In this document: positions 1 to 45,051 of the stretch, in pieces | Layout of the letters: each line of letters begins with the position of its first letter | Numbering within the stretch: the first letter of the stretch is position 1 | IMG/VR virus record: IMGVR_UViG_3300047564_005052 | Location: 1-45,098 of that record | DNA from: a virus | Direction: 5' to 3' (one strand) | DNA length: 45,098 nucleotides | The notes under the pieces: model-generated | What the model was told of the DNA's origin: nothing | The model's input: only the letters and a program-made list of their open reading frames with translations | Databases searched by the model: none | Made by a program: the position numbers and the translations under genes

Positions 1-3000
1 TACCAGAAGAACCATCTGTACCTGATGAACCACTTGTACCAGAACTTCCGCTTGTACCAGAGGAACCACTTGTTCCAGAAGAACCATCAGTTCCTGATGA
101 ACCAGATGTTCCTGAACTTCCACTCGTACCTGAAGAACCATCAGTTCCTGATGAGCCACTCGTACCAGAAGAACCATCTGTACCTGATGAACCACTTGTA
201 CCAGAACTTCCGCTTGTACCAGAGGAACCACTTGTTCCAGAAGAACCATCAGTTCCTGATGAACCAGATGTTCCTGAACTTCCACTCGTGCCCGAAGAAC
301 CATCAGTTCCTGATGAACCGGATGTACCCGAACTACCACTTGTTCCAGAAGAACCATCAATTCCTGATGAGCCAGATGTACCTGAAGAGCCATTTATACC
401 TGAACTTCCGCTTGTACCAGATGAACCATCAGTTCCTGATGAGCCACTCGTACCAGAAGAACCATCAGTACCTGATGAACCACTTGTACCAGAACTTCCG
501 CTTGTACCAGAACTTCCTGATGAGCCGCTTGTGCCAGAACTTCCTGATGAGCCACTTGTACCAGAACTACCACTAGTTCCAGAAGAACCATCAGTTCCTG
601 ATGAACCAGATGTTCCTGAACTTCCGCTAGTACCAGAGGAACCACTTGTTCCAGAAGAACCAGATGTTCCTGAACTTCCGCTTGTACCAGAGGAACCACT
701 TGTTCCAGAGGAACCACTTGTTCCAGAAGAACCATCAGTTCCTGATGAACCACTAGTTCCAGAAGAACCATCAGTTCCTGATGAACCACTTGTTCCTGAA
801 CTACCACTTGTGCCTGAACTACCACTTGTACCTGAAGAACCAGATGTTCCTGAACTACCACTTGTTCCTGAAGAACCACTTGTTCCTGAAGAACCATCAG
901 TTCCCGATGAACCAGACGTACCTGAGCTACCGCTCGTACCACTTGAACCAGATGTTCCTGAGCTACCGCTCGTACCACTTGAACCAGATGTTCCTGAGCT
1001 TCCTGATGTTCCAGAAGAACCTGATGTTCCTGAAGAACCACTTGTACCAGAACTTCCACTTATTCCTGATGAGCCAGAACTACCTGATGAACCACTTGTT
1101 CCTGAAGAACCATTAGTACCAGAACTTCCACTCGTACCTGAAGAACCACTTGTTCCAGAAGAACCATTAGTACCAGAACTTCCACTCGTACCTGAAGAAC
1201 CACTTGTTCCAGAGCTTCCACTAATTCCTGAGGAGCCGGAGCTCCCTGATGAACCAGAACTTCCAAATATTGTTGCAAAAATACATATATCACTACCAAC
1301 GAGAGGATTTGTATTCGGACCGCTACTTGAAATATACAATACTGATAGATTGTATATTGTACCATTAATTGATTTATTTGTTATTCGGTAAGTATATTGA
1401 TTTGTTCCTCCTAAGAGTGTTATATACGAACCTATAGTAAGGCTATTCAAATATGATGATACGTTGACTCCGTATTTATCAATCTCATTAATATAAACTG
1501 TATTTACTGCTGGTCCTAATGCTCCACTATTTGTACTTAATCTTCCGTTTGAAGGATTTGATGTAAATGCCGCCCACAAATAACAAGTTTGTGCTGGTGT
1601 AATTCCTGATGTTCCCGAAGAACCTGAGTTTCCTGAACTTCCACTTGTACCAGAAGAACCATCAGTTCCTGATGAACCAGATGTTCCTGAACTTCCACTT
1701 GTTCCAGAAGAACCACTAGTACCGGAAGAACCACTAGTACCGGAAGAACCACTAGTACCGGAAGAACCACTAGTTCCAGAAGAACCATCAGTTCCTGATG
1801 AACCACTCGTACCAGAAGAACCATCAGTTCCTGATGAACCAGATGTTCCAGAAGAACCACTAGTACCGGAAGAACCATCTGTTCCTGAACTTCCACTTGT
1901 GCCCGAAGAACCATCAGTTCCTGAGCTTCCACTTGTGCCCGAAGAACCATCAGTTCCTGATGAACCAGATGTTCCTGAACTTCCACTTGTTCCAGAAGAA
2001 CCAGATGTACCAGAAGAACCATCAGTTCCTGATGAACCACTTGTACCAGAAGAACCATCTGTTCCCGATGAACCACTAGAACCCGATGTACCAGAACTTC
2101 CACTTGTTCCAGAAGAACCATCAGTTCCTGAAGAACCACTAGTACCAGAAGAACCACTTGTACCAGAAGAGCCATCAGTTCCTGATGAACCACTTGTACC
2201 AGAAGAACCATCAGTTCCTGATGAACCACTTGTACCAGAAGAACCATCTGTTCCCGATGAACCACTAGTTCCAGAAGAACCATCAGTTCCCGATGAACCA
2301 CTAGTTCCAGAAGAACCATCAGTTCCTGATGAGCCTGACGTACCTGATGAACCATCTGTTCCTGAAGAACCACTAGTTCCAGAAGAACCATCAGTTCCTG
2401 ATGAACCAGATGTGCCTGAACTTCCACTTGTACCTGAAGAACCATCAATTCCTGAACTTCCGCTTGTTCCTGATGAGCCAGACGTACCTGAAGAACCATC
2501 AATTCCTGAGCTTCCACTTGTACCTGAAGAACCATCAGTTCCTGATGAACCAGAACTTCCTGAGGAACCACTTATACCCGTTCCACCTGCCAAAGAAATT
2601 AAATTCCAACCTGTTTCTAAAGTTGTTCCTGTATTAATTGAATCTGAAGAAAAATCCGCAATAATTGTTGGGTCAGTAACATCCCATCCAATAACGACAG
2701 GTATAAAACCGACACTATTGGGGGATTGAAACCCGTCTTTTGAAGTTATGAATCCATTGCTCTCCGCGGCGTTCCATTTAGAAGCATAATCTGTAATATG
2801 AAAAACATAAAATTCATTTGTCTCTATGACTCTTACTAACATTCCCACTTTTCTTCTTCCTGAAGTTAGTTGGTCTGATTGTGTTATGAGAATTTCTCCT
2901 GAGAATTCGAGAGGAATGTTTGTTAAATTCAAGTCAGTTATACTATAGACAGACATATAACCACCAGCAATATATACATCATATGTTAGAGGCTCAACTG

Positions 3001-6612: not shown

Positions 6613-9583
6613 CACAACTTATTTCTATATTTATACCAACATTTAAAAACAGGTTCTCTCCGATGTTAATTGGTGTCATAGTCAAATTATATACAGTCAA
6701 ATCATTACCATTTAAAAAATATCCCAAATTATATGATGTTAGTTGTGGTAAATTATTTATAAGAGCAGTTCTCCAAGCAGTATTTGTAGGAACGTCAGTA
6801 GAACCGTAGCCCGTATAGAATTGTTCTTGAATTATTATTTGGTCATTCAATCTTAAATCTACAAACCATTCTGATTTTAAAGAATCTAATAAACAATCGG
6901 TAATTAATAAACCTTGTGATGTTAGAAAATTATTCAATCTGTTGTTCAAAATACTACTGAAGTTTGAAACAGTAATATCCCCGTTTAACCAAGGATAGAT
7001 TGAAAAGTCTACAAACTCTTTGCTGCAGGTATAATCAAAAATATTCGAAACAATATAACAAGATTGTACCGGTACAGGTACAAATTCACACCCTCTCTGT
7101 CTTCTATATACAAATTTTTGTCTGTGGAAAATAGAATTTTCATATTTTATTCCTGATGTCCATATTGTTGTTGCTGGAACCATTTGTTCAATCAGTTTCA
7201 TCCAATAAGGACCAAGTCCCTCAACATAATCAATTAACTTTTGATAGGTATACTTGTTATTTGGAATACCTACGGTTTGTTGTGATTCTATGTATTTCCA
7301 AAATATTGATTGTAGAGTTGGATAGCCTCCTGTTTTTCCATCGGTAATAAATTGTCTATTTCTCGTGTTGATTGTATTTTGCCAGAAAGTCTGTAAAAAT
7401 TCAAAAAATGTTTTCTTTTTCGGTTCAGGATTTATGTAGGTTATATCTATACCACCTGGTACTACGAATGTCGCACTAAAACCAGATTCAGGTATTGGAT
7501 AATCAAAATTTACAGATTCGTCCCAAACATCATAAGCCAAACCTTGTCCAGGATTCAAAGCAATTTCAACATTCTTCGCATTCAAAACTAACTTCTCATT
7601 ATCTACGAAATAATAAGCGTTATAGTTTCCCTGTTTAGATATTCTTATTTTATCGTCGTCCGCCAACCATGATTTATTATTATCAATAACCTTTCTAAGT
7701 TTGAATCCCTCGGTCATAAAAGGAAATTGTCTATATAAATCCAAATAGATTTGACCATAGGTGAAAGGTTGTAATTGTGTTTGTATATCATAATTTTGTC
7801 CAGTATAGATTGCGCCGTTCAAAACTACTTCATCAGGACTTCTGTGTTGTGGGGTTACTTGGTACCAGCCAGCGCCTTTTTGAAAGAACATATTTTCGTT
7901 AGGTGTTGGAGCTTTGGGGAAACCCTCATCGTCAACAGGATAATCTGCTCTATCAACATTAACTTCTTGATACTCATCAGTCACAGTAAAAGCTGTGTAC
8001 AGTTGACCCTTTATTTTATATGTGTCTCCAGGTAGTAGTGATGGTAATTCTTGTACGTAAGTACCTCCTGATATGGCTGCGTATTGAGAGTCAAAGACCT
8101 CCATATTTATTTTTTGGTCAGCCAAGTATATGTGTTCGTTAAATTCTACCAAGGAATCAGGAGCACCTATTAATCTCAAGAGAAATTCTATAGACCTTCT
8201 TGTTCCTTTGGATTTGAAAAGATAAGCAGAATTTAAAATTAAATTTCTGTAGAATTGGTAATTGAGTTCTGTTGGTGTCAATGTTCTAGAGAAACCAGGA
8301 TACTCATTCACCGCTTGATTTCCAAAAACACTTTGTAAAAAGTTCTCATCTGCAATTGGCGAAAAGTTAGAAGACCATCCTAAAGTTCTTGCTAAGTTAT
8401 ACAATAATTGAGATGGTATGTCATTTGCCGGTACGTAATCGACTGAGGTCATGTACGCCAAACCGTCAATAAAAATTTTTATTTCATCAAAACTTCTACC
8501 ATAAAGTTGAAATACTTTTTCAACCTTTTGTCCCAAAGTATCGAATTCTTTTAATGAACCTGAAACCAAGAATCTCGACAATAGATTAGTTTTAAACTCG
8601 TCCATGTTTACTGCAACGGATTCTAGTCTCTCCAAATAATTGTCAAAACCAACTGACCTTATATCTAAGTTCCATGTACCATCTTTCGGCCAAGTCACCA
8701 ATACATTCGAAAGATAAAATTGACCAAAATCATCCTGTTGAGGAACTTTAAAATCTGCAGTGTATTCGGGAGATACTAATCTGTTCAGAAGATATTTTTC
8801 TATTACATCAAAATTTTCTTCGAACACTTTATCGACGGTCATGTTATTTGGTCTAATAACAAAATCTTGATAATAAGTTGTTGCAGTTGTACCAAAAGGT
8901 GCTCCTGAAACATAAAATGAAATTGTACCTGTACTTAGTGAGGGTGAAGGTGTAAAGGATTCTATCTTATATTCTATATCATCGATATGAATTGCATAAT
9001 CCAAATAAGTTTTGGATAAGTTCCTATACTTAGAAACTTCCATTTCTCTAACACTAAGATTAGTTGTTGCGTTTGTTGAATAATCTATTTCAAAAGGATT
9101 ATTAATCCTATTAACATTAACCTCGAAATAAGTCTCATTATTAACTGAGTCGAAAGAAATATTTGTTGCGGTTGCTCCCGTTGTAAAATTTAATTGTGAA
9201 TAGAGTACATCCAATCCAGCAGGAAAGAAATTAATAATCTTTGTGATAGATACACTAAATCTTTTAGCCAGAGAACCATACATCGAAAAATTACCAACTT
9301 GTGAAACATCAAAATTTGGTACTACTCTGAATTGTGTCTGTAAGATTCTATCACCTTCTAAGGTTGAATTTATTTGTAAGTTTTCTAAACTAATAGGTGA
9401 AGAAAATGCCCCAACATTAAAAGTTCTATTAACTTTTTCAGCAACAGACGTTGTAAATTCAAAATTACCTTGGGTAAGACCTCCTCCATTAACCGTTTGT
9501 AATCCTACGATTTCATCCGAGAATGTTCCAGCTCCACTGCCTGGCCTCGGAGGATAAAAATATTTTTGCCTTGTTGACGCCAT
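6605..9583 (-). CDS. Large baseplate protein, tail protein I / gp7-like (tentative)
   Basis: A 992-residue protein. Around residues 440-480 it carries a stretch with FYRNLILNSAYLFKSKGT followed by RRSIEFLLRLIGAP, which resembles the KGT-RR-S-x-x-FLL segment of phage tail protein I-type baseplate wedge proteins; this is the only recognisable element. The N-terminus (MASTRQKYFYPPRPGSGAG) is flexible and Gly/Pro-rich. The ATG shares its A with the stop of the upstream gene (TAATG), indicating coupled translation. Position just downstream of gp25, gp6 and other baseplate genes and upstream of the adhesins suggests a peripheral wedge or fibre-attachment role, by analogy with T4 gp7/gp10 or P2 gpI. 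That assignment is inference. Confidence 0.6.
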   Translation of the reverse strand: MASTRQKYFYPPRPGSGAGTFSDEIVGLQTVNGGGLTQGNFEFTTSVAEKVNRTFNVGAFSSPISLENLQINSTLEGDRILQTQFRVVPNFDVSQVGNFSMYGSLAKRFSVSITKIINFFPAGLDVLYSQLNFTTGATATNISFDSVNNETYFEVNVNRINNPFEIDYSTNATTNLSVREMEVSKYRNLSKTYLDYAIHIDDIEYKIESFTPSPSLSTGTISFYVSGAPFGTTATTYYQDFVIRPNNMTVDKVFEENFDVIEKYLLNRLVSPEYTADFKVPQQDDFGQFYLSNVLVTWPKDGTWNLDIRSVGFDNYLERLESVAVNMDEFKTNLLSRFLVSGSLKEFDTLGQKVEKVFQLYGRSFDEIKIFIDGLAYMTSVDYVPANDIPSQLLYNLARTLGWSSNFSPIADENFLQSVFGNQAVNEYPGFSRTLTPTELNYQFYRNLILNSAYLFKSKGTRRSIEFLLRLIGAPDSLVEFNEHIYLADQKINMEVFDSQYAAISGGTYVQELPSLLPGDTYKIKGQLYTAFTVTDEYQEVNVDRADYPVDDEGFPKAPTPNENMFFQKGAGWYQVTPQHRSPDEVVLNGAIYTGQNYDIQTQLQPFTYGQIYLDLYRQFPFMTEGFKLRKVIDNNKSWLADDDKIRISKQGNYNAYYFVDNEKLVLNAKNVEIALNPGQGLAYDVWDESVNFDYPIPESGFSATFVVPGGIDITYINPEPKKKTFFEFLQTFWQNTINTRNRQFITDGKTGGYPTLQSIFWKYIESQQTVGIPNNKYTYQKLIDYVEGLGPYWMKLIEQMVPATTIWTSGIKYENSIFHRQKFVYRRQRGCEFVPVPVQSCYIVSNIFDYTCSKEFVDFSIYPWLNGDITVSNFSSILNNRLNNFLTSQGLLITDCLLDSLKSEWFVDLRLNDQIIIQEQFYTGYGSTDVPTNTAWRTALINNLPQLTSYNLGYFLNGNDLTVYNLTMTPINIGENLFLNVGINIEISCDG

Positions 9584-10491
9584 TAGCTCGTTATTGTGTT
9601 AAAGTTCTTACTGAAATCTATATTGTTGCCCCTACTTTCTCTAACCTCGTACAACAACGCGTTGAATTGGTCTCTAATCTCATATAAGTTGTATTGTCTG
9701 TAAATGTTATTTGCAGAATCGTATATTGTGTAAATTCCATCATCAATTGATTTAGTTTGATTTCCATAAAGAGCTATCGCCAGTGATGAAATATCATACT
9801 CTACCATTTCAACTTCTATACTTACAGGATTGAAATATGTGTTGCTTATAATAATATCTTGGTCTGGTTGTCCTATAAATGGTGTCGCATTTGGTTTGTT
9901 TGTTGGTGATGAAGAGGGTGAAACAGTTAAAAAAAGTAAATTTGTCTGCCCATCAACATACCTATACCTAATCGCTTTTTGAGATGTGTTTACTTGATTT
10001 GTTATGATTGGTTCGCAATAGAAACATGAAGTTATAATTCTGAAGAAGTTCGGAATTTTTGAACCGTCAGCATTTAAGTATTCAATTCTAAATCCGACTA
10101 GACCTTGTGGAACAAATTTATTTAAAAAATTCGAGGGTACATTAGTTAAATCAATAACTAAACCTTTAACATTTGGAAGAGCACTTAATATACCGCAATC
10201 CGTTATTGTTGTTCTAATCTGAGCAGCTCTCAAATAAAGAGTGTAAATTCCAAGTTGGTTAAACTCATCTGCCGGTAATGTTAAATTATATAATCCACCT
10301 AAAATTTCTACACCATTATTTCCTCCCGTTTCGGAGTTATTAAAATAAGGTCTCAAAATTGTTGATGCATCTAATCTTTTCAACACGAAAGAATTTGTAA
10401 CATCCCTTGATGGTGTATAATTAAGAATTATCTCCACATCATCTGGAGAAACATCACTTGGTCTCAGTGTTCCATATGTTCCTATTGCCAT
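9583..10491 (-). CDS. Putative baseplate/tail protein, 302 aa
   Basis: A 302-residue protein not recognised as a known family. It starts MAIGTYGTLRPSDVSPDDVE and has alternating beta-rich segments, with a CFYC pair near residue 157-160 that could bind metal or form a disulfide. The ATG at 10491 is preceded on the coding strand by CTATTTAT, 18 nt upstream, a motif shared with several other gene starts here. Its stop overlaps the start of the 992-residue baseplate gene. Context (between wedge proteins) makes it a structural tail protein; a precise role cannot be given. Confidence 0.55.
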   Translation of the reverse strand: MAIGTYGTLRPSDVSPDDVEIILNYTPSRDVTNSFVLKRLDASTILRPYFNNSETGGNNGVEILGGLYNLTLPADEFNQLGIYTLYLRAAQIRTTITDCGILSALPNVKGLVIDLTNVPSNFLNKFVPQGLVGFRIEYLNADGSKIPNFFRIITSCFYCEPIITNQVNTSQKAIRYRYVDGQTNLLFLTVSPSSSPTNKPNATPFIGQPDQDIIISNTYFNPVSIEVEMVEYDISSLAIALYGNQTKSIDDGIYTIYDSANNIYRQYNLYEIRDQFNALLYEVRESRGNNIDFSKNFNTITS

Positions 10492-21454: not shown

Positions 21455-23311
21455 TTAAACTAAAACACATGCTCCGCCAGCACAAGCTAACTCTCCACTC
21501 AAATCAGTTTCATCATCCAATTCTACAATTTTAGATAAATCAACCTCATGTAATGTTTCCATTAACTCTTCGTACTTTTCTTTGGTACAATCCTCGAAAG
21601 GAGCTTGAATATATGTACCTCCATCATAAGGAAGTACGGATAATCCGTTATAGTGGTCTCTGTTTTCCCACATCCACTCACCTACCGCAGGCCATTCGTG
21701 TTCACGAATAGAAACTGTTGCAGATACGTTGTGAGAGTTACTACCGCTTCTATGTCCAGGTTTAATCCAATCTACGTGTACTTTTTTAACTCTTTCTAAG
21801 AGTTGAATTGGTGATTCGTTTCTCAAAATTGAACCTTCAGGAGCTTTCTGAGGAATACCAATAACCGCAGTATCGTGTGGTCTGAAATATTCATCTTCAA
21901 CCAACTCAGGGTGATTCTCCTTCAAGTAAGTATAGATTGCTTCGTTCTTACCAACTCTAACTCTTCTGATATAATAATCATTGTGCCAAGCATGGATTCC
22001 AGAAGAAGTTCCTAATGTAAGTGAAGTAGTTCCTGCAGGTTTTACAGTAGTTGTTCTCGCCGCTGGGTTAATTCCAAGTAGTTCAGCGACTCTTTTATTT
22101 TCCTCTTTAACAATTTTAGATGCGGCTTTCATATCTAATTTTAATACTGCGCCTGAACCAATCCCTGTCATTGATACTCCGATAAGTGCATCTTTCTCAG
22201 TAGTTCTTTGCCATATAGGTCTCAGGTAATGGAAGTTAGTGTAACCAGCTTGTAGCGTACCACAAAAAGCCGCAGCTCTAACTCTATCTTCATAGTCTTC
22301 TTGAGAAACAACATTAGACACGTTTACCTCTGTTAAATTACAGAATTGGAATGGTCTAAGTGCAATTTCACAACAAGGATTGGTTCCCCAATCTTTATCA
22401 TTGGTTAAATAAATTCCGGGTTCACCAGCTCCGCTTGCTTCAATTCTCTTCCAAAGGTCCATGAAGTACTCTTTAGTTATTTTGTGTCGGAGCAACACAG
22501 CTGAGTTATTTGCTCTACCTCTTTGTGGATTTGTTTCCCACCACGCACCTGACTTACATCCAATCATCTCATCATCAGTTGCAGAGAACAATGATATAAG
22601 AGCAGCTCTTCTAATACCACCCGCCAATACTGCATCTGCAATATGACAAACCATATCGTGAACTTCAATTGGTCTTAACTTCTCTCCGTTTTCTTTTGAA
22701 TCTAAAATACCTTCGAGTTTAATGAGACACTCTTTTAATGGCTGAGGGCCTGGAGCCTTTCCACCGGAAGTAACAAGTCTCGCACCTTTTGGTCTGATGT
22801 CACTGAAATCAAATTCAATTTGCGAACCACCAAAGAAGTATGACTTTACTAAAATTTTGACTGCGTCTGCCCATCCTTCAATAGAGTCAGCAACTAACCA
22901 TCTTCTTTTTCTTTCCTTATTTGGTTTAAGGATTTCAGGTAAAGCCTCAACATGATGCTTTTGAACAGAATATCCAACACCTGTACCACCGAGTAACAAG
23001 AACATTACTTCAGAAAAAACTCTCCAATCATCAATTGGTGCAAAAGCACAGTTATAAATTCTGTTTGGAGAAATCTCAATTGGTTTTCCTGCAAATTGCA
23101 TTGACCTCATTGATGGGAGAACTTGTTTTTTAAAAACATACATGTAGTTCTCTCTAATTTCTTTTTCTAATTTAGGGAATTGCTTGATATGCATTTCCAT
23201 GTTTCTTGTGACTAATTCTTGCCACGTTTCTCTTCTGTTCAACTCAGGAATAAACTTAGCGTACTTCATGTACACTGTAATATCACTGAGTATTCTGTTC
23301 GAAATGTCCAT
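21455..23311 (-). CDS. nrdJ: Adenosylcobalamin-dependent (class II) ribonucleotide reductase
   Basis: A 618-residue reductase that makes deoxyribonucleotides for phage replication. Active-site parts are all visible: Cys88 in NCAF (first redox Cys), N311-P-C313-C-E315 (radical Cys and catalytic Asn/Glu), C324 in CNLTEVN (second redox Cys; the C313-C324 spacing of 11 equals the C408-C419 spacing of the Lactobacillus leichmannii enzyme), and a C-terminal C610-AGGA-C615 pair like that of the same enzyme. No NrdB or glycyl-radical neighbour was seen, so class II with coenzyme B12 is the best call. It is about 120 residues shorter than the roughly 740-residue Lactobacillus enzyme, which suggests a reduced regulatory region. 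It follows the helicase gene after a 129-nt gap and precedes the DUF5522 gene. Confidence 0.88.
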   Translation of the reverse strand: MDISNRILSDITVYMKYAKFIPELNRRETWQELVTRNMEMHIKQFPKLEKEIRENYMYVFKKQVLPSMRSMQFAGKPIEISPNRIYNCAFAPIDDWRVFSEVMFLLLGGTGVGYSVQKHHVEALPEILKPNKERKRRWLVADSIEGWADAVKILVKSYFFGGSQIEFDFSDIRPKGARLVTSGGKAPGPQPLKECLIKLEGILDSKENGEKLRPIEVHDMVCHIADAVLAGGIRRAALISLFSATDDEMIGCKSGAWWETNPQRGRANNSAVLLRHKITKEYFMDLWKRIEASGAGEPGIYLTNDKDWGTNPCCEIALRPFQFCNLTEVNVSNVVSQEDYEDRVRAAAFCGTLQAGYTNFHYLRPIWQRTTEKDALIGVSMTGIGSGAVLKLDMKAASKIVKEENKRVAELLGINPAARTTTVKPAGTTSLTLGTSSGIHAWHNDYYIRRVRVGKNEAIYTYLKENHPELVEDEYFRPHDTAVIGIPQKAPEGSILRNESPIQLLERVKKVHVDWIKPGHRSGSNSHNVSATVSIREHEWPAVGEWMWENRDHYNGLSVLPYDGGTYIQAPFEDCTKEKYEELMETLHEVDLSKIVELDDETDLSGELACAGGACVLV

Positions 23312-23440
23312 TTTTTAATTTTTATTGTTGTTATTTTTTATAAAAAAATCGTCGATTTTTCAAATAAATATAGTGTTGCTCTGAAAGCGGACTACATTTT
23401 ACAAGAAAAAAAATAAGTTTTTTTGAAAAAAAGTAGATAT
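23312..23440 (-). promoter_or_regulatory. AT-rich leader upstream of the RNR gene, possible weak promoter
   Basis: The longest gap within the replication module. On the coding strand it holds TATATTTATTTG, close to the Bacteroidota TAnnTTTG box, but with no convincing TTTG about 20 nt upstream, plus an AT-rich hairpin (AAAAATCG/CGATTTTT around 23347-23363). Separate regulation of the reductase is possible but not demonstrated. Confidence 0.25.
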
Positions 23441-24823
23441 TTAGTTTGGTGTATTTTTTTGTTCCTTTTGTTTTCTTTTCTCCAAAAGTTCCCTAACTCT
23501 ATCTCTATTCTTTTCTTCTTTCTGTTCTTCAAATCCTAAGAAAGTCACAGACGATTCTGTGTCTATCTCAAGTAATTCATTATTGAACTTGCAGTTTTCG
23601 AATATTACTCCGTCTTTTCCAAGTCTAGATTTTGTAATTGCTATTGTTGCCAAGTTCATTTCTTTTTGTTGTAGTGTTTTTGCTATTGATATAATAACGT
23701 GACCAACCTGTGCCTTCTTGATTGAACCTCCCATTTGGTCTGTAGTTACGACTTCTGAAGATATAGATGACCTGTTTCCTTGGGTTGCCGTCCAACCAAC
23801 AAGATTTAGTTCATGGCACATTGCCTCAAATTGTCTCATAACTGAACCTTCACTCTTCCACTCATCTTTGTTAGGGTTTTCGGGTAGAACACAATCGATA
23901 TAGTCAATCAAAATTAAATCGACTCTGATTCCGTCTGCAATCATTTTCCTAACCTGATTCTTAATTTGTAACATAGTCAATGAGTCCGAAGGGAGCTTCT
24001 TCAAGATTAATCTGTTGGACATAGTCTCTTTGATATTCTTGATTTTGTCCATAACAATATCCTTACTCAAGACTAAATTATCAGGCTCAATACCAGTCCA
24101 AAGAGTAAAATGTTTTCTTTGTACTATTTTCGGGTTGTCTTCAAAAAATATTTGAAGAACATTATATCCCATATTAAATGCTGTGTTAGAAATCTTTGTT
24201 AGGATTGTGGTTTTACCGACACCAGTAGGGGCCAATATAACACCTATCTCTCCTTTTGCCAAACCTCCCTTGAGTAGTCTATCAATACCGGCAATACCCA
24301 TAGGAATTGGGTGACGGAAATCTTCATCAAGAACCGTTTCCAAATCACTGAACACATCTGACATTCCATCTTGAGACTGACCAACTTGTAGTGCATCTCT
24401 TATTAATCCCTCCACTTTATCGTAAGACTCAAAATCACCTTCGTTGATAATTTTTTGAGCCTTTTCCATTGCCTTTTGAAGTTCTTGTTGCTTACAGAAT
24501 TTCAACCCTTTTTCCTGAACGAAAAAGGAACCTTCGAGTGGGGCAGATTTTATTTGTTTGATAGTATCCAATACTATTTTAGAAACTAACTCTTGTTGAA
24601 TTTCTGACTTGACAATTTGTTCCAGGGTTTCAAATGAGGGTGAGGATTCATACTTTTTATGATACTCTTTAATCATCTGAGTTATTATCTTGAAATACTT
24701 ATTGTCAAAATAAGAACTTTCTAGAACATCTATAATTGTTGTGGAAAAGGTCTTGTCTAAGATTAACTGGTTGAGTAATTGTAGTTGGAATGTATTTCCA
24801 AGATAATCGAAATTTTTATTCAT
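23441..24823 (-). CDS. gp41: Replicative DNA helicase, DnaB / T4 gp41-like
   Basis: A 460-residue RecA-fold helicase that unwinds DNA ahead of the replisome. Walker A APTGVGKTT lies at about residues 197-206, Walker B LILIDYID at about 301-310, and TATQGNRSS at about 341 corresponds to motif H4/sensor region. An N-terminal helical domain (about 1-150) fits the DnaB N-domain, which in T4 contacts primase. The last 40 residues are Lys/Glu-rich and probably flexible. Genes for UvsX, exonuclease and SSB lie upstream in the same operon; no primase was found in the window. Length matches T4 gp41 (475 aa). Confidence 0.9.
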   Translation of the reverse strand: MNKNFDYLGNTFQLQLLNQLILDKTFSTTIIDVLESSYFDNKYFKIITQMIKEYHKKYESSPSFETLEQIVKSEIQQELVSKIVLDTIKQIKSAPLEGSFFVQEKGLKFCKQQELQKAMEKAQKIINEGDFESYDKVEGLIRDALQVGQSQDGMSDVFSDLETVLDEDFRHPIPMGIAGIDRLLKGGLAKGEIGVILAPTGVGKTTILTKISNTAFNMGYNVLQIFFEDNPKIVQRKHFTLWTGIEPDNLVLSKDIVMDKIKNIKETMSNRLILKKLPSDSLTMLQIKNQVRKMIADGIRVDLILIDYIDCVLPENPNKDEWKSEGSVMRQFEAMCHELNLVGWTATQGNRSSISSEVVTTDQMGGSIKKAQVGHVIISIAKTLQQKEMNLATIAITKSRLGKDGVIFENCKFNNELLEIDTESSVTFLGFEEQKEEKNRDRVRELLEKRKQKEQKNTPN

Positions 24824-24849
24824 AATTAAAGACCCTCTTTATTAAATAC

Positions 24850-25302
24850 TTACTTAGACAGCTCGTATTCTAAAAATTCAAAATTTAATACAGTTTCTGA
24901 AAAGATGTCAGTCAGACCTTTAAGTATATCTTTCAAATATGGTCTTACATCAACAGTATACCTAACTTTTGGTGGAAACTTTTTTCCATCAAAAATTCTA
25001 TGACAAATTGTCTGGTCTCCTAACTTGATATAAATGTTAAAATATTCAGGTCCGTCTGTAAAAGATGTTTCCATTACTGATGGGTCGTGCATGATACTCT
25101 CTTTGTTGTCCAACATATAAACCACAGTTTTCATTTTCAAATCATACTGAAGTGTCTCTGCAGTATTTTTTAAAAATTCGTAGAGGTCATAAGAGTTTCT
25201 TGCCCTTGGATTGAATCCCTTCACATTGAAGAATCTTTGAACTACAATATTGTCGTTCAGTGTCAAAAGGAATTCCAGTTTCGTGATGTCTTGTTCTTTC
25301 AT
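24850..25302 (-). CDS. Unknown protein with an internal tandem duplication
   Basis: A 150-residue protein not recognised by family. The two halves align: residues about 13-48 and 92-127 share L-x-D/N...(V/I)-x-x-R-x-F-(N/D)-x-K-x-F-x-P-(R/K)-x-R-x-(S/T)-x-D-(L/V)-x-x-(F/Y)-LK, and both are followed by a helix. This implies a duplicated domain that may form a pseudo-dimer. It lies between exonuclease and helicase genes, separated by 18 and 26 nt, so a role in the replisome is likely (for example a helicase accessory or loader position), but I see no motif proving this. Confidence 0.6.
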   Translation of the reverse strand: MKEQDITKLEFLLTLNDNIVVQRFFNVKGFNPRARNSYDLYEFLKNTAETLQYDLKMKTVVYMLDNKESIMHDPSVMETSFTDGPEYFNIYIKLGDQTICHRIFDGKKFPPKVRYTVDVRPYLKDILKGLTDIFSETVLNFEFLEYELSK

Positions 25303-25320
25303 TTTTTATTTTTTTGGTTA

Positions 25321-26313
25321 TTATATTTTTCTTTTTTCTTTTCTAGTTAATTTCATAAATGGTTTAAGAAAATTCACCCAAGCTTCGTCATTCTTTGGTA
25401 GAAATTTAAACATACCATCTTCAATCATCATCTTCATAAGATTTTTGTATCCCCTGTCTGTAGGGTCAAAAACATCTGAATATATACTCGTCACAAGTTC
25501 TTTACCATCATCAGTAATCAGCGGATTTGTCAAATCAACAATTTTTTTGTTTAGTTCAAATAACTGTTCACCAAGTATACCATTTTTAGACTTACCAGTC
25601 AAAATATTAGTAAGAACTTTTGACTTTTTTTCTTGCATGATATTTCGAGCGTAGTCGAAGAATTCTTCGATTGTGCAGGACTTTTCAGTCATTTCAGGAA
25701 ATATTTTGGTAATTGTTTTTTCACCTAATCCTTCTACACCATCTATGTTGTCTGATTTGTCCCCCGTCAATATCTTGAAAAGGAGTACATTTTGGTGGGG
25801 TATTTCAATGTCCCCCATTTTTATCTTATCACCGTTTTTATAATACTTTTTTTGGATTGGTGAAAAGATTGTAACTTTTTCTGAAATTAATTGTGTTAAA
25901 TCTTTATCTGCTGAGAATATTATAATTTTCTCGTCTATAGCGATTTTACAATAATATGCAATTAAGTCATCTGCCTCATTATCTTTAATTTCAACCTGTC
26001 TGACAAAAACCTCTTCTAAGTATTGTTTCACTCTAACCTTTTGTTGCAGGTAAGCTTCGTACTTGTACTCAGCCATGGATTGTCTTCGATTAGCCTTGTA
26101 TTGGGGGTACAGTGACTTTCTGGTTGATGAATTAGTATCACCATCCCAAAATACAACTACCTTATCGTGGTTATGCTCTTCTAGAAACTTTTTGAGAGTG
26201 TTGATAAAATGAAATACTCCCCCAACGTGTTGATTCTCGTTAAAGTAATCCTTTGCACCGTGAAATCCAATCTTAAATAAATTATCTCCGTCTACTAATA
26301 GTGTTTTTGTCAC
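25321..26313 (-). CDS. 5'-3' exonuclease / flap endonuclease (T4 RNase H-like)
   Basis: A 330-residue PIN-like/FEN nuclease that removes RNA primers and 5' flaps. Metal-binding acidic residues are visible: LLVDGDNLF at residues 5-13, VVFWDGD near 50, EADDL near 112, SADKDLTQL near 134-142, and GDKSDN near 184-189 followed by the helix-hairpin-helix-like GVEGLGEKT. Length is near T4 Rnh (305 aa). The gene lies directly after uvsX with a 20-nt gap. The highly basic C-terminus (RKEKRKI) may contact DNA. Confidence 0.9.
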   Translation of the reverse strand: MTKTLLVDGDNLFKIGFHGAKDYFNENQHVGGVFHFINTLKKFLEEHNHDKVVVFWDGDTNSSTRKSLYPQYKANRRQSMAEYKYEAYLQQKVRVKQYLEEVFVRQVEIKDNEADDLIAYYCKIAIDEKIIIFSADKDLTQLISEKVTIFSPIQKKYYKNGDKIKMGDIEIPHQNVLLFKILTGDKSDNIDGVEGLGEKTITKIFPEMTEKSCTIEEFFDYARNIMQEKKSKVLTNILTGKSKNGILGEQLFELNKKIVDLTNPLITDDGKELVTSIYSDVFDPTDRGYKNLMKMMIEDGMFKFLPKNDEAWVNFLKPFMKLTRKEKRKI

Positions 26314-26333
26314 ATACCTTTTTTAAAGGGTTC

Positions 26334-27335
26334 TCAATCTTCTTTTTCTTCTGTTAAAGTGAAATCACCATCAGAACCGATAATGTCTTTCCAATAATCA
26401 GCATACTCTTTTTTGTATTCTTCGATAGAGGTTTTTTCTTCTGCAGAATCTTTACCCGCCAAGAATCCGTGAGGAGTTACAATTATTTTACCATCATCAT
26501 ATCCTAAACCATTGATGTGATTTTTCAAAACAGATATTTTACTTCTTATCGCAAACTTAACTGAACGTTTGTCTTTGGTTGCTGTAATCTTGGTAGTTCC
26601 TGCTCCTTTTTGATTTCCAAATAGGAAAACTAAAGAAGAATTTAACCAAACAGATTCACCACCTTTCGCCTTAATTTTGGGTTGACCAAATGGATTATCA
26701 GGAAGTTCTACCCATGGTTGATTAATAATAATCAAAGTATTTTCATATTCAGTATCAGCCTTTCTAGAACCTGATATTCTTTGGTTGATTCCCATACCAA
26801 TTTTATCTGATAGTACAGATGCGTTATGTTGTTTACCACCCTTACCCTCATAAGTCATCTTACACGGAACAGAACCAACTGAATCCCAAATAAAACATAA
26901 ACTATAGGTTAGTTCTCCTTTTTCTTGAGCGTCAAGTAATTGATTAATGTACTCAGTTATTTGTTCTATATAACTAAAATTGTTGTTGAAAAGGAAAAAT
27001 CCATCCCAATCCATCTCACCTGTTTCTTTATCAGGAACTTCCTCACATTCAAAACCCATAAGTCGGGCATGGTCAAAACTCCATTTTTGTTCTGTAATAA
27101 TGAACACAGGTAAAATACCCTTTTTCTGCGCATCGACTGCTGATTTAATTGCTGCTGTGGTTTTACCTGTGTCTGAGTGACCTAAGAACATGTTAATATG
27201 CCCAATTGCCGGACCAGGTATTCCAACCGCATCCAAAAAATCTTGACCCAAATCAAAAAATCTTTGTGGTTTATATTTTGCCGAAGTAGAAAACTTTTTC
27301 TTTAAACTACTGAATTCATTTTTCTTTATTGCCAT
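26334..27335 (-). CDS. uvsX: UvsX-like RecA recombinase
   Basis: A 333-residue RecA-family ATPase. Walker A GHSDTGKTT is at about residues 51-59, the catalytic-Glu strand with FIITEQKW near 77-84, Walker B CFIWDSVGSVP near 147-158, and a DNA-binding-loop-like INQP segment near 205-208. UvsX catalyses strand exchange for recombination-dependent replication and repair in T4-type phages. N- and C-terminal ends are short, and the length is slightly below T4 UvsX (391 aa). It overlaps none of its neighbours, with seven bases to the upstream small gene. Confidence 0.9.
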   Translation of the reverse strand: MAIKKNEFSSLKKKFSTSAKYKPQRFFDLGQDFLDAVGIPGPAIGHINMFLGHSDTGKTTAAIKSAVDAQKKGILPVFIITEQKWSFDHARLMGFECEEVPDKETGEMDWDGFFLFNNNFSYIEQITEYINQLLDAQEKGELTYSLCFIWDSVGSVPCKMTYEGKGGKQHNASVLSDKIGMGINQRISGSRKADTEYENTLIIINQPWVELPDNPFGQPKIKAKGGESVWLNSSLVFLFGNQKGAGTTKITATKDKRSVKFAIRSKISVLKNHINGLGYDDGKIIVTPHGFLAGKDSAEEKTSIEEYKKEYADYWKDIIGSDGDFTLTEEKED

Positions 27336-41669: not shown

Positions 41670-43589
41670 TTATCTTTTCGGCATATAATCACCGTCTACC
41701 TTATTTACCCCTTGTTTGATAATTTTGAACAATTCCTCATCAAATTGAGCAACAAATTTTTTCCTGTCCATTTCTGGCATGGTTGACAACATTTTTACAA
41801 GTTCAGGACTTCCTGTGAGTTCTATCTTTGTTATTTGTCCTCCAGTTACATTTACATCTATTTTGTTTGGCATCAATCCCTGTTGTGTAAACTGTCTTCC
41901 TTGAATTCCAGTTGAATAATATTGAGTTAATGACTGATTATTTATTATCTGACTTATCCTTTGTTCCGCTTGTTTAAGTTCTCGTTGAGCTCTTCTTTGT
42001 TCTTGGTTTCTTTTTTTCATCTCATCGGTCATTTCCGCACCCGAAATCATTGGTTGATTTTTCATTAACTCATTAATTTTTGCCGCCTCATCTTTTATCA
42101 TATTTAACATTTTGGGAAAATCAGTAGCGCTAGTTGGGATTCCTCCTGCTCTTTCTTTGGCTTCTTTTGCAACCTGTTCACCCAAAGTTTCGAGTGATTT
42201 TTCCAAGTCTTTTATAGCATTATCGTCACCTTTAATTAAACTTTCAACGCTTTCTTTAACCCCACGAAACAACGCATTTGACTTTTCTCTAGAACCCTCT
42301 GTTGTGATTCCTGTTTGGTCAGCGGCAGTTTTGGTTACTGCATATCCTAATCTTCTTAATGTTTCCTGAAGTTCTATTACAGTTTTTCCTGAGGCAAGAC
42401 CAAGTGTTAATCTATCCTTTATTGATGCAATATTTGTATTCATCAATGTTTGTGTATCTAATTGACTTCTCTGAATTTCCTCCAAAGTTTTGGGTGCTCC
42501 TTTCTGTAATTCAATAAGTGTTTCAATTTGGTCGTTAGACAGTTTTTGTAATTCAACCGATTTTCTACTTCCGTCGTCTTGAAGCATATCAATTACATAC
42601 TTTCCTTCTTTATCCATCCTCGCTAAGTTGGCAAGTAACATTTTGTCTTCCTCGGATTCGAATTGGAAATCAGGTTTTATCATCTCTAATTTCCTTTGAA
42701 CGTCTGCAGCATTAAGTGATAATTTCATAAGTTCTTCACTACTCATACCTGCTTGGTCCGCAATTTCTCTCAACATTAACTTACCGTAAGGTGTAATTTC
42801 AAATCTTTTTGTTTGCTCATTGAATTCACTATATTGTGCGGTCATTTCAACCAAAGCATCTTGTAGTCCTTCAGGGTCCATAAGTGATTTATACATTAAC
42901 TCAAATGGGTCTGTTAAAGTTCCAACTGACACACCTAATCTTTGGAACGCGCTCGAAAGTTCTATTGCCTTCTCAGGTTTAAGTGCGTTTTCCGCTAATT
43001 GGAAGACTTGGTTCATGTCGAATTTGAGGACTGTGGCTTTAGTAGCCATCCTTGTCAATCCTTCAACACCATCTTGAAAATTAAATTGATTCATTTTGCT
43101 CATGTATTGAAACGTGGTGTCCATAACTTGTACAAGGTTTGCACCTACGTTTCTAACATAACCTATGGCATTTTCTAATTCGGGTCCTATTCTTGAGAAT
43201 TGTACTCCTATTGATTGAAAATCTTCTACCATACTATCCACTGTCCTACCCATAACTTGGCTTGCGGATAATAAACTTTTAATATCATCTGTGCTTGCTA
43301 TTACATTTCTTCTTGTGGCAACGGAAATTGCTTCAAAAGCCTGTGCAGCATCTTCGAATTTTAAACCTAAGAGAGCCGCTTCGGGTGTTGCATCTGCAAG
43401 AGCAACTTTGAGCTCTGCAACTCTTTCTCTGGTCATTCCAAACAGGTAATTAACACTTCTAGCCCTACCCTCTAATTCCTTCATTACATGTTTGACACCA
43501 TCTAGTCCAAGACCTTGGCCTTCTTTATTTTCATTATCTACTGTACCTTTAGTTGTGAAGGCTTTTATAAAACTTTCTAAAACATCCAT
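41670..43589 (-). CDS. Tail tape-measure-like protein
   Basis: A 639-residue, largely helical protein. Residues about 60-200 have the alternation typical of phage tape measure N-terminal regions (ATRRNVIASTDDIKSLLSAS, VMGRTVDSMVEDFQSIGVQF). The middle is helical and charged; residues about 500-550 are a predicted coiled coil (EMTDEMKKRNQEQRRAQREL). Length is near T4 gp29 (590 aa); at about 1.5 angstroms per residue it would set a tail of about 95 nm. It lies after tail tube and gp26-like/chaperone genes, the expected place for a tape measure gene. It starts 18 nt after the concealed frameshift ORF. Confidence 0.78.
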   Translation of the reverse strand: MDVLESFIKAFTTKGTVDNENKEGQGLGLDGVKHVMKELEGRARSVNYLFGMTRERVAELKVALADATPEAALLGLKFEDAAQAFEAISVATRRNVIASTDDIKSLLSASQVMGRTVDSMVEDFQSIGVQFSRIGPELENAIGYVRNVGANLVQVMDTTFQYMSKMNQFNFQDGVEGLTRMATKATVLKFDMNQVFQLAENALKPEKAIELSSAFQRLGVSVGTLTDPFELMYKSLMDPEGLQDALVEMTAQYSEFNEQTKRFEITPYGKLMLREIADQAGMSSEELMKLSLNAADVQRKLEMIKPDFQFESEEDKMLLANLARMDKEGKYVIDMLQDDGSRKSVELQKLSNDQIETLIELQKGAPKTLEEIQRSQLDTQTLMNTNIASIKDRLTLGLASGKTVIELQETLRRLGYAVTKTAADQTGITTEGSREKSNALFRGVKESVESLIKGDDNAIKDLEKSLETLGEQVAKEAKERAGGIPTSATDFPKMLNMIKDEAAKINELMKNQPMISGAEMTDEMKKRNQEQRRAQRELKQAEQRISQIINNQSLTQYYSTGIQGRQFTQQGLMPNKIDVNVTGGQITKIELTGSPELVKMLSTMPEMDRKKFVAQFDEELFKIIKQGVNKVDGDYMPKR

Positions 43590-43607: not shown

Positions 43608-43760
43608 TTATACTTTCTTATTGAGTTCTATCCACTTGTCGAGCAAATATTTCCTAACGAAAATTGGCATTTTCATAAAGTCTTCCCATGAGACTTTTAA
43701 TAGAGTAGATAAATAATAAAATTCGTCTAGTTGTCCAACCCTATAATCAGAAGAAAGGAC
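43608..43760 (-). CDS. Out-of-frame extension of the gp26-like gene (tail assembly chaperone T-like), probably made by +1 frameshift
   Basis: After the slippery TTT TTT C, the +1 frame continues for 50 codons to a TAA at 43608: it contains GQLDEFYYLSTLLKVSWEDF and then MPIFVRKYLLDKWIELN. This pattern (a helix, a Trp/Glu, then MP-x-x-x-R-x-x-L-x-x-x-W) resembles the T part of frameshifted tail assembly chaperones. The frame has no ATG or GTG upstream of this region; only TTG codons at 43771 and further are available. The fused product would be about 293 residues (243 plus 50). The frame ends 18 nt before the tape measure ATG, the place where G/GT-type chaperones sit. A sequencing indel or a TTG start are the alternatives. 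Confidence 0.6.
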   Translation of the reverse strand, partial: VLSSDYRVGQLDEFYYLSTLLKVSWEDFMKMPIFVRKYLLDKWIELNKKV

Positions 43761-44490
43761 GAAAAAATTCAACCCCAAACCCAACGTTGATTGTGAGTTT
43801 TTCTCCTGATGGGGTTGTGATTGTTTTTCTTAAATCTAACCTTGGAGTATTTTCATCCAAGAATTTTTTAATTAATTTAGAATCCGAAATCGGAAGTTGT
43901 TCTATGAATTTTGCAATATATCCTTTGTCTGTATTTCCCCCAACATCTACTATTTGTTTTTGAAGTTTGGTTGTTACTGAAGGTGAAATTCTACCTTGCG
44001 GATAGCTGTCTAATATTTTACTTATTTCACTAGAGTCACCTAAAGTGAGTGGTTTAAGTTTCACACTTACTTTACTTTTAGGCAGTTCTAAAGAGAAAGT
44101 ACCATCAGCATTAGGTTCTTGCCCTTTAACAATTGGTAATTCATCTAACCTAACAGTTGTACTGAATTGTTTACTTGTTTTTGGGTCAGTGGCATTTATG
44201 TTAATATCCGGTCCAAAAGATGAGTTCCTTAGGAATATGAGTATTGCCTCTACATCACCCTCTAAAAGTTCTTCCACTTTTAAATCTGGCTCATACAATT
44301 TATTTCTTATTAAATTAAGTGTTAAATTATCAGAACCTCCCATTATAATGTTCTCATCCGCGGCAGTTAAATATCCAACTTTAACCGACCTTTTTTTATT
44401 CTTGTAAAAGAATCCCTCTGAAGGTAGAGGTACTACATCATGTGGTAATGTTAAATTTTCTTGTCCGTATTGTCTTGATTGGTCATCCAT
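43747..44490 (-). CDS. gp26-like baseplate hub assembly / tail chaperone protein
   Basis: A 247-residue protein. It has the T4_baseplate (gp26-type) pattern: LPSEGFFYKNKKRSVKVGYL, TAADENIIMG, NLIRNKLYEPDLKVEELLEG, then DVEAILIFLRNSSFGPDINI. The zero frame ends in EFFRPFF. It lies between tail tube and tape measure genes, where other phages encode the tail assembly chaperone. The codons TTT TTT C near its end overlap a +1 frame extension described separately. The ATG at 44490 comes directly after the terminator U-run, so the gene is probably transcribed by read-through or from the same late promoter. Confidence 0.8.
   Translation of the reverse strand: MDDQSRQYGQENLTLPHDVVPLPSEGFFYKNKKRSVKVGYLTAADENIIMGGSDNLTLNLIRNKLYEPDLKVEELLEGDVEAILIFLRNSSFGPDININATDPKTSKQFSTTVRLDELPIVKGQEPNADGTFSLELPKSKVSVKLKPLTLGDSSEISKILDSYPQGRISPSVTTKLQKQIVDVGGNTDKGYIAKFIEQLPISDSKLIKKFLDENTPRLDLRKTITTPSGEKLTINVGFGVEFFRPFF
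43761..43767 (-). other. Candidate +1 ribosomal frameshift site (TTT TTT C)
   Basis: In the zero frame the codons GAA TTT TTT CGT are read. A Phe tRNA on the second TTT can re-pair perfectly one base on, on TTC, the best match for its anticodon GAA, entering the chaperone-like frame. This fits +1 slippage; a -1 slip would give a different frame and a mismatched P-site. Confidence 0.5.
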
Positions 44491-44562: not shown

Positions 44563-45051
44563 TTAATAAACTAATACACAACGGTCCATTCTCATAGTAG
44601 CAGTTATAGTTGCTAAACCATCTTGGTTATAAGCCAAAGAATTAAAGTTTACGTCAGTCAAGAATGTTCCGTAAAGAATCCACTTTTCTACAACTACACC
44701 TGTTGGGTCCAACATTTCCAAGTCTACGTCTTTTTTGTAACCTGCAGCATAACCCATACGACCTGTTACAGATTCTGCATGTAAACGTACCCACTCCATC
44801 AAAGCTTGTGAAGCTGAAGGACCGATTGGGTCTCTAAATGTTACGTTAAGTGTTTGCCAGTTAAATCTTCCTGCAACCCATACAGATGTATTAAGGAAAG
44901 GAATCTCAGTTGCAGCGATTTGTATATGAGGTCTAGCAGTACTTTCTACAAACCATTCATTGATACCCAAACTCGACGGAAACCTCAAAATGAAACGATT
45001 CTGACGTTTCGGTTCATAGGGTATTGGCATTTTCATTAGTAAGTCAGCCAT
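44563..45051 (-). CDS. gp19: Tail tube protein, T4 gp19-like
   Basis: A 162-residue protein, the same length as T4 gp19 (163). It polymerises around the tape measure as the inner tube of the contractile tail. Diagnostic features are MPIPYEPKRQNRFILRFPSS near the N-terminus, FNWQTLNVTFRDPIGPSASQ near residues 62-82, and the closing beta strands with GLATITATMRMDRCVLVY. The start is ATG at 45051, preceded by AAAAAGTAAAAAAATTTTAAC. A strong terminator follows. The sheath gene is expected beyond the right edge. Confidence 0.93.
   Translation of the reverse strand: MADLLMKMPIPYEPKRQNRFILRFPSSLGINEWFVESTARPHIQIAATEIPFLNTSVWVAGRFNWQTLNVTFRDPIGPSASQALMEWVRLHAESVTGRMGYAAGYKKDVDLEMLDPTGVVVEKWILYGTFLTDVNFNSLAYNQDGLATITATMRMDRCVLVY

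Follow-up and report, generated by a model that had tools for sequence, protein, structure and literature searches.

A gp26-like phage gene with a conserved +1-frame extension: a probable two-form tail assembly chaperone with a putative upstream RNA stem

Frameshifted tail assembly chaperones are known with −1, −2 or +1 shifts, and have been described as conserved 'except T4'; a +1 shift is considered probable for HSTV-2, and phage Mu shifts by −2 (part of PMC5009743). In phage lambda, a −1 shift yields a short product, gpG, and a rarer long product with a C-terminal domain, gpGT, encoded just before the tape measure gene. T4 instead has two separate genes, 26 and 51, with the products gp26 and gp51. 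Both are listed as hub assembly chaperones in a review of the T4 tail (part of PMC3004832). According to the PRFect paper (part of PMC10885494), a short and a long TAC gene occur together in some T4-like phages, and poly-T −1 signals are reported in TAC-N genes of T4-like phages in a paper of 2025 (part of PMC12846349), each citing Vladimirov 2022. The link from gp26 to the G/GT chaperones is therefore not a proposal of ours, being already published. Vladimirov, Gautam and Davidson (2022) reportedly name genes 26 and 51, as well as frameshifting in other T4-like groups.

Two further systems bear on the direction of the shift. In the release factor gene RF2 (prfB), a +1 slip takes place in the P site while an A-site codon waits, with a G-rich element upstream. 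A designed 12-bp hairpin on the RF2 site, which refolds upstream, has been found to stimulate +1 and to weaken −1 shifting in a bacterial 70S system (Huang, Cho and Chang, 2018; part of PMC6321510). The same source describes an internal Shine-Dalgarno sequence 8–11 nt upstream as a stimulator of −1 shifting.

The locus described here lies in the viral record IMGVR_UViG_3300047564_005052, the whole of which (45,098 nucleotides) is called the window. The features concerned are as follows:

44563..45051, minus strand: tail tube protein, gp19-like (phrog_4542 tail tube, E 8.1e-23; 42% identical to the Mel-JY01 tube)
43747..44490, minus strand: putative TAC-N, the T4 gp26-like short form, 247 aa (PF12322, phrog_150, AlphaFold model match to 2OB9)
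43761..43767, minus strand: proposed slip site TTT TTT C (conserved codons in relatives, and a stop codon in relative L109)
43608..43760, minus strand: putative TAC-C extension in the +1 frame, 50 codons plus TAA (open frame, pN/pS, AlphaFold, motif)
41670..43589, minus strand: tape-measure-like gene, 639 aa (assigned mostly from position)

The gp26-like protein matches PF12322 (T4_baseplate; E 9.1e-11, 42.3 bits, above the curated cutoff of 24.5) and the baseplate hub family phrog_150 (E 2.3e-14). Along the minus strand, the tail tube gene is followed by the gp26-like gene, the tape-measure-like gene and then more large genes. This is the order expected of TAC-N/TAC-NC pairs of the G/GT type and the one put forward in an earlier, sequence-only reading of this DNA, with the tube identified by phrog_4542 and the tape measure mostly by position. 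In HTVC008M, gp26 and a gp51-like ORF precede a putative tape measure gene. The 639-aa protein itself gave nothing above cutoff against Pfam and no meaningful similarity to the tape measure of phage immuto; a single comparison gave weak similarity (E 1e-8) to the ORF behind the gp26-like gene of contig L197. Elsewhere on the same strand, a ribonucleotide reductase, a DnaB-like helicase and a weak RecA-like match lie amid tail and baseplate genes (21455-27335).

In place of the two genes of T4, the window has one gp26-like gene with an extension in the +1 frame. The gp26-like ORF (44490..43747) ends in GAA TTT TTT CGT CCT TTC TTC TGA, with the T6 run at 43767-43762 and the following C at 43761. 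After TTTTTTC the +1 frame stays open for 50 codons (43760..43611) to a TAA at 43610-43608, which leaves 18 nt before the ATG of the next gene (43589), exactly as first read. The −1 frame of the window is closed 20 nt from the gp26 stop, and a canonical −1 heptamer (X XXY YYZ) is not in register, the zero frame being GAA TTT TTT C; the shift proposed at the outset, +1 rather than the usual −1, fits the frames.

To what extent this frame is coding can be judged from its relatives. A first set was collected with peptide patterns that left out the C-terminus, and comprised the best 80 of 109 matches, one of which (L081) is the window itself. In all 79 of these with a readable gp26 stop (L062 was left out for want of one), the +1 frame runs on without a stop of its own for another 133 to 142 nt. 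A second scan (best 80 of at least 590) brought the total to 153 loci, 101 of them distinct, with seven loci from annotated phage records kept apart from the 101; its patterns contained the FFR motif, so that this protein motif is not independent evidence, while its codons are. The extension is open in 101/101 distinct relatives, 99 of which reach a stop at 47 to 52 codons, the remaining two being cut by the contig end. Across 94 distinct sequences of 43 codons, taken from 151 of the 153 loci (two were too short), no extension frame contains a stop (0/94), as opposed to 94/94 in each of the other frames, and pN/pS is 0.232 in the extension frame against 0.790 and 1.758 in the other two. The extension frame is therefore real and not noise, and comparative sequence analysis confirms it as a coding region, far beyond chance, with purifying selection acting on this frame only. 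Searched alone against Pfam and PHROGs, the extension matched no family.

The codons around the T run are likewise conserved, as are the split frames, in all 101 distinct relatives, which had been suggested as a check. These sites were located by a search for TTYTTTCG, which missed none of the 101. From 5′ to 3′, the codons are GGG (101), GTN or GCN (mostly free), GAN (free), TTT (95) or TTC (6), TTT (101), CGN (101; CGC 53, CGT 39, CGG 7, CGA 2), CCT (85) or GTT (16), TTC TTC (101) and finally TGA (87), TAA (11) or GGA (3). The slip codon proposed for the P site is TTT at 43764-43762, with +1 re-pairing on TTC at 43763-43761 and CGT at 43761-43759 in the A site. A tRNA at a slip codon is generally held to need a codon with which it can re-pair, and perfect re-pairing one base forward, a feature of the RF2 type, is available in all 101 (TTT then C). 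The codon that would wait in the A site is CGN throughout, although CGN makes up only about 10% of the Arg codons elsewhere in these genes (AGA 79%, CGC 0.8%); such rarity is no more than a proxy for slow decoding. RF2 itself differs in having a stop codon in the A site, where the window has none.

The position of the shift can be bracketed. Relative L109 carries GGGGTAGAA, which places a TAG of the +1 frame directly ahead of the T run, between GGGG and the run, so that there the +1 frame can be entered no earlier than TTYTTTC and no later than the gp26 stop. The same placement is also indicated by the synonymous freedom of GAN and the fixation of the doubly coding TTC TTC. The spot within this bracket that lets a single tRNA re-pair perfectly after moving one base forward is TTT followed by C. 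An in-frame TTTC occurs just once in the gp26-like gene of the window; one or two extra are present in 27 of the 101 relatives. A slip on GGG_G (GGG to GGG) was considered and rejected, as the TAG within GGGGTAGAA lies in the +1 frame beyond GGGG.

Two peculiarities of codon use were seen nearby. In the three relatives with GGA in place of the gp26 stop (L028, L032 and L096), the short form of the first two ends at a TAG 6 nt further on, which indicates that the usual stop position is dispensable for the arrangement. The codon after GGG (43773-43771 in the window) is GTA in only 1/101, yet GTA accounts for 28% of Val codons elsewhere; it is perhaps scarce here because it would close the extension frame.

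We consider it very probable, judging by these sequence patterns, that the locus makes a tail assembly chaperone together with a frameshifted long form, in the manner of lambda G/GT, by a +1 slip. Other routes to the same domain can be envisaged. One is that the extension is a separate small protein started inside gp26, either alone or beside the fused form. The absence of an upstream in-frame ATG or GTG, to which the sequence-only reading had pointed, holds for the window, where only TTG codons occur before the conserved domain (from 43784 on), but not for its clade: in 85/101 distinct relatives, an in-frame ATG inside gp26 precedes the conserved part. In 77 of these 85 it lies 20 nt before the T run, and a conserved AGGAG stands 15 nt before it. 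Eleven of the 101, the window included, have TTG as the only possible start. Among sequences outside the 101, an upstream ATG in the extension frame is present in L174, L083, SP-15, LIS04 and GXN1, and TTG only in L180, immuto and Mel-JY01; an ATG for the extension alone stands just past the gp26 stop in the distant L173, L179 and L088. Against such a start, the common ATG derives from an Asn-Val codon pair of gp26 (AAT-GTN), is not conserved, and is replaced by ACG in the window (43787-43785); AGGAG lies rather far from it, and Shine-Dalgarno pairing is little used in Bacteroidia (part of PMC8710568). Moreover, no start codon at all precedes the domain in five of the 101 (L051, L054, L109, L132 and L136), nor, outside them, in L164, L169, L171, L185 and Streptomyces phage BRock. 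It is because of the five start-less relatives and the L109 stop that the frameshift reading is kept. A free second extension protein is possible in relatives with the in-frame ATG, and independent initiation may occur in many of them, yet on these sequences it cannot be the conserved route to the domain; as the explanation of the locus, alone or beside the fused form, we regard it as unlikely.

A −2 slip, from UUU to UUU inside the T6 run, would open the same frame with one extra residue. The T6 run is present in 95/101 distinct relatives, phage Mu uses −2 for the same kind of gene (part of PMC5009743), and LIS04, with TTT TTT AGT, would suit −2 as well as +1. In the other six of the 101, however, the run reads TTC TTT C, and more distant sequences depart further: TTC TTT TGG in L164-L172 and L174-L178, CTG TTT CGC in BRock and AGC TTT CTT in immuto. 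With TTC, CTG or AGC before TTT, the codon reached by −2 cannot pair with tRNA-Phe, which favours +1, and a −2 slip is to be thought very unlikely. RNA polymerase is known to slip as well, and slippage on the T run would give a mixed mRNA with no need for a ribosomal shift. The same 95 uninterrupted runs speak for it; the six runs broken to TTCTTTC, and the three T only of BRock and immuto, speak against it and make it highly improbable. A decayed frame or an assembly error, finally, can be dismissed, since 153 viral contigs of the clade and several isolated phages conserve the same two-frame layout under purifying selection; this also rules out a sequencing indel that might have split one frame into two, raised from the start as a case to be checked in the raw reads.

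The +1 slip on UUU thus remains our preferred reading, and the RNA upstream of it offers a candidate stimulator. The elements concerned are the following:

43810..43815, minus strand: proposed stem S1, 5′ arm ACCCCA (pairs with 43772-43777; CCCC in 87/87)
43772..43777, minus strand: proposed stem S1, 3′ arm TGGGGT (GGGG in 87/87; ends 7 nt before the slip codon)
43800..43809, minus strand: speculative helix S2, 5′ arm TCAGGAGAAA (10 bp including one G-U, to 43747-43756)
43747..43756, minus strand: speculative helix S2, 3′ arm TTTCTTCTGA (also the doubly coding end of gp26)

In a consensus folding of 63 sequences, (A/G)CCCC(A/G/T) at 43815-43810 pairs with (T/C)GGGG(T/C) at 43777-43772. The four C-G pairs are invariant in 87/87 distinct sequences, and the flanking pairs form in 84 and 76. 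This fixation extends to the synonymous third base of the Thr/Ala codon in CCCC (ACC 13.5% and GCC 8.8% elsewhere) and to the third base of GGG, which elsewhere accounts for 8.4% of Gly codons. Overall, 97.7% of S1 cells are paired and two pairs have changed on both sides, with the limits that the loop is 32 nt long, that the 7 nt to the slip codon exceed the 3 nt of RF2, and that four of the six pairs never vary; in the outer two, AU, GU and GC all occur over 51 sequences. Synonymous constraint is concentrated in this part of gp26: seven of the eight fully invariant synonymous columns in 67 representatives fall in the last 22 codons, and the last stretch of 17 codons ranks first of 236 (0.455, against at most 0.416 elsewhere). 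That GGGG acts as a plain Shine-Dalgarno element is disfavoured, since the CCCC with which it would pair is kept even at a synonymous third base. RF2 differs here too: its Shine-Dalgarno-like sequence lies 3 nt upstream (part of PMC8710568), a position at which the window has none, while GGGG ends 8 nt upstream and is paired with the conserved CCCC. The likeness to the hairpin of Huang, Cho and Chang (part of PMC6321510) is that of an upstream mRNA stem near a +1 site, with the difference that theirs is a designed 12-bp hairpin and the window's a natural, putative stem of 6 bp with a long loop.

Helix S2 has 96.1% of its cells paired and no pair changed on both sides; the conservation of its 3′ arm is explicable by coding in two frames. 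A pseudoknot is kept as speculation for these two reasons. The complementarity of TCAGGAGAAA and TTTCTTCTGA could reflect such a pseudoknot, a ribosome-binding element for the upstream ATG, or chance combined with double coding. The 5′ arm sits in the loop of S1, and its GGA codon is fixed in 67/67 representatives.

Statistics on stem and folding were sought after the stem had been seen and are exploratory. For S1 and S2 together (51 sequences), covariation is 0.103 against 0.077 and the number of cells changed on both sides 21 against 9.4, each reached in 0/500 shuffles, which ignore relatedness; pairs changed on both sides (252/500) and pair types (500/500) are not raised, so that two of five measures fail to exceed shuffles. 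Folding of the 53 nt upstream of the slip codon was compared with that at the gene's other codons. It is better at the slip codon in nine +1 phages (Fisher 1.5e-5 on ranks and 0.0027 on shuffles); a set of six −1 phages shows no such rise (0.43 on ranks, 0.19 on shuffles). Single cases run across this division: XacN1, a −1 phage, alone among these shows upstream folding (z −2.04), and of the +1 phages, immuto (z 0.13), BRock (0.48) and L180 (−0.72) do not stand out clearly from their shuffles. A more direct measure, the pairing of bases −12 to −3, gives only a slight rise at +1 sites (Fisher 0.011 for the nine, 0.015 minus the window; 15 cases, some of them close relatives, have a mean rank of 0.244) and is no lower at −1 sites. 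Downstream of the slip site, consensus folding gave no stimulatory structure (MFE 0.00 for 0..80 and 7..77), although single sequences do fold there.

Taken together, these features suggest the following course. Most ribosomes would terminate at the end of gp26 and produce the 247-aa short form, TAC-N. In the others, once the second UUU of UUU UUU CGN has been decoded, tRNA-Phe would re-pair from UUU to UUC, one base forward, with the rare CGN codon still unread in the A site; the CCCC/GGGG stem may re-form behind the ribosome, 7 nt upstream of the slip codon, and push it forward. Slipped ribosomes would read 50 more codons, and their product, TAC-NC, would have 293 aa and end in a helical domain. 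If the two forms work as lambda G and GT do, TAC-N would cover the tape measure while TAC-NC brings in the tube protein, and the two would come off before tail completion. The shifting itself, its frequency, the role of the stem and the functions of the proteins are what we infer from the conserved sequences.

The chaperone-like helix pattern noted at first in the extension agrees with an AlphaFold model of three helices (pLDDT 89.7); the model of the gp26-like part has pLDDT 87.6. With the latter, the top two Foldseek matches in the PDB are HK97 tail assembly chaperone chains (2OB9) at a level that is not significant (E 0.24, probability 0.89), which agrees with the proposed tie between the gp26 family and the G/GT chaperones. 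In a VIA-align comparison with 984 chains, the best were 2OB9 (Z 5.4 over 87 residues, rmsd 3.7), 3FGX (5.4) and YqbN (3KLU, 5.3), with the next at 2.8, where a Z under 8 can reflect a common arrangement. YqbN-like proteins are also tail chaperones. The extension model had no match in a fold search of the PDB; in the BFVD its first viral match is a tail assembly chaperone (E 1.4, probability 0.87; not significant), among 39 matches that are mostly uncharacterised. PF12322 recognises both gp26 (E 8.8e-64) and gp51 (E 3.9e-52) of T4, and gp51 also carries a C-terminal piece (phrog_634). In our alignment A3, a pattern of helix, S/T-x-x-D/E, M-P-x-x-x-R and helix is common to the window's extension, SP-15, cyanophage gp51 and the C-terminus of T4 gp51, and hhalign gives a weak match between extension and gp51 C-terminus (probability 0.5%, E 0.11).

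The virus probably infects Bacteroidota, as suggested by a 711-aa protein with SprB repeats (4480-6615, minus strand; PF13573, E 5.1e-22), which also has weak similarity to a Por secretion tail. Bacteroidia ribosomes hide their anti-Shine-Dalgarno sequence, and a survey of Bacteroidia found the RF2 frameshift site kept in 523/726 genomes (part of PMC8710568). The S1 hairpin may be a stand-in for an internal Shine-Dalgarno element; given how widely the RF2 site is kept, +1 shifts of the Shine-Dalgarno type likewise seem possible in such hosts.

The +1 arrangement extends beyond the clade. It is found in SP-15 (L184), LIS04, GXN1, the 484-kb phage LR756508, Flavobacterium phage immuto, Mel-JY01 and Streptomyces phage BRock, as well as in L164-L172, L174-L178, L180, L181 (cut by the contig end) and L185; L182 and L183 were left out, with only part of gp26 present. 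A different register of the same U run occurs in cyanophage-type relatives. In all ten phages picked from lists of 9, 424 and 538 records (S-SM2, S-PM2, Mosig, Milchi, phiN3, nt-1, HTVC008M, S-SSM7, syn9 and XacN1), the zero frame reads T TTT TTY and the −1 frame is open; several of their small ORFs also have their own ATG. Erwinia SNUABM_47 is like them; XacN1 and SNUABM_47 are counted by frame arrangement, not by homology of the extension. These relatives would accordingly shift −1 at the same heptamer, displaced by one base from the window's. Relatives that lack the extension, or start it from their own ATG, had been named as a possible refutation of the frameshift reading: both occur in distant relatives, yet within the window's clade the extension is never absent (0/101). 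A scan of genome contigs gave five weak relatives (L194-L198). In L196 and L197, contigs of Bacteroidaceae and Prevotellaceae MAGs, a gp26-like gene is followed by a long tape-measure-like ORF (~6690-9790) with no extension domain between the two; L195 and L198 have no extension of the window's kind, and in L194 the +1 frame is open to the contig end, 58 nt on.

On these comparisons, a large group of uncultured aquatic phages would join those in which the gp26/gp51 family supplies a two-form tail chaperone. They also suggest that shift direction can change at one site. More tentatively, we propose that a re-forming hairpin replaces the internal Shine-Dalgarno element as a natural +1 stimulator in these phages of probably Bacteroidota hosts, and that one homologous U run is used both ways, −1 in the cyanophage type and +1 here, with direction set by register and upstream stem; this wider proposal is possible, though we hold it more doubtful than not. 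The open-access papers searched, with Vladimirov 2022 itself outside that scope, yielded no description of a +1 direction or of a CCCC/GGGG stem in the gp26 family, and the forward skip and the conserved RNA fold ahead of the slip codon look new. The locus offers a test of natural +1 frameshifting by an upstream stem, and the isolated phage immuto has the same arrangement.

For annotators, the rule would be that a short ORF listed as 'hypothetical' behind gp26 probably encodes the C-terminus of a long chaperone form. Likely TAC-C domains have been annotated as separate hypothetical genes in L084 (SP15_046), L199 (immuto35A_232), L200 (3716-3952) and L087 (SSM2_011), and a separate 57-aa ORF of S-SM2 matches phrog_634, 'baseplate hub assembly catalyst' (E 1.7e-26).
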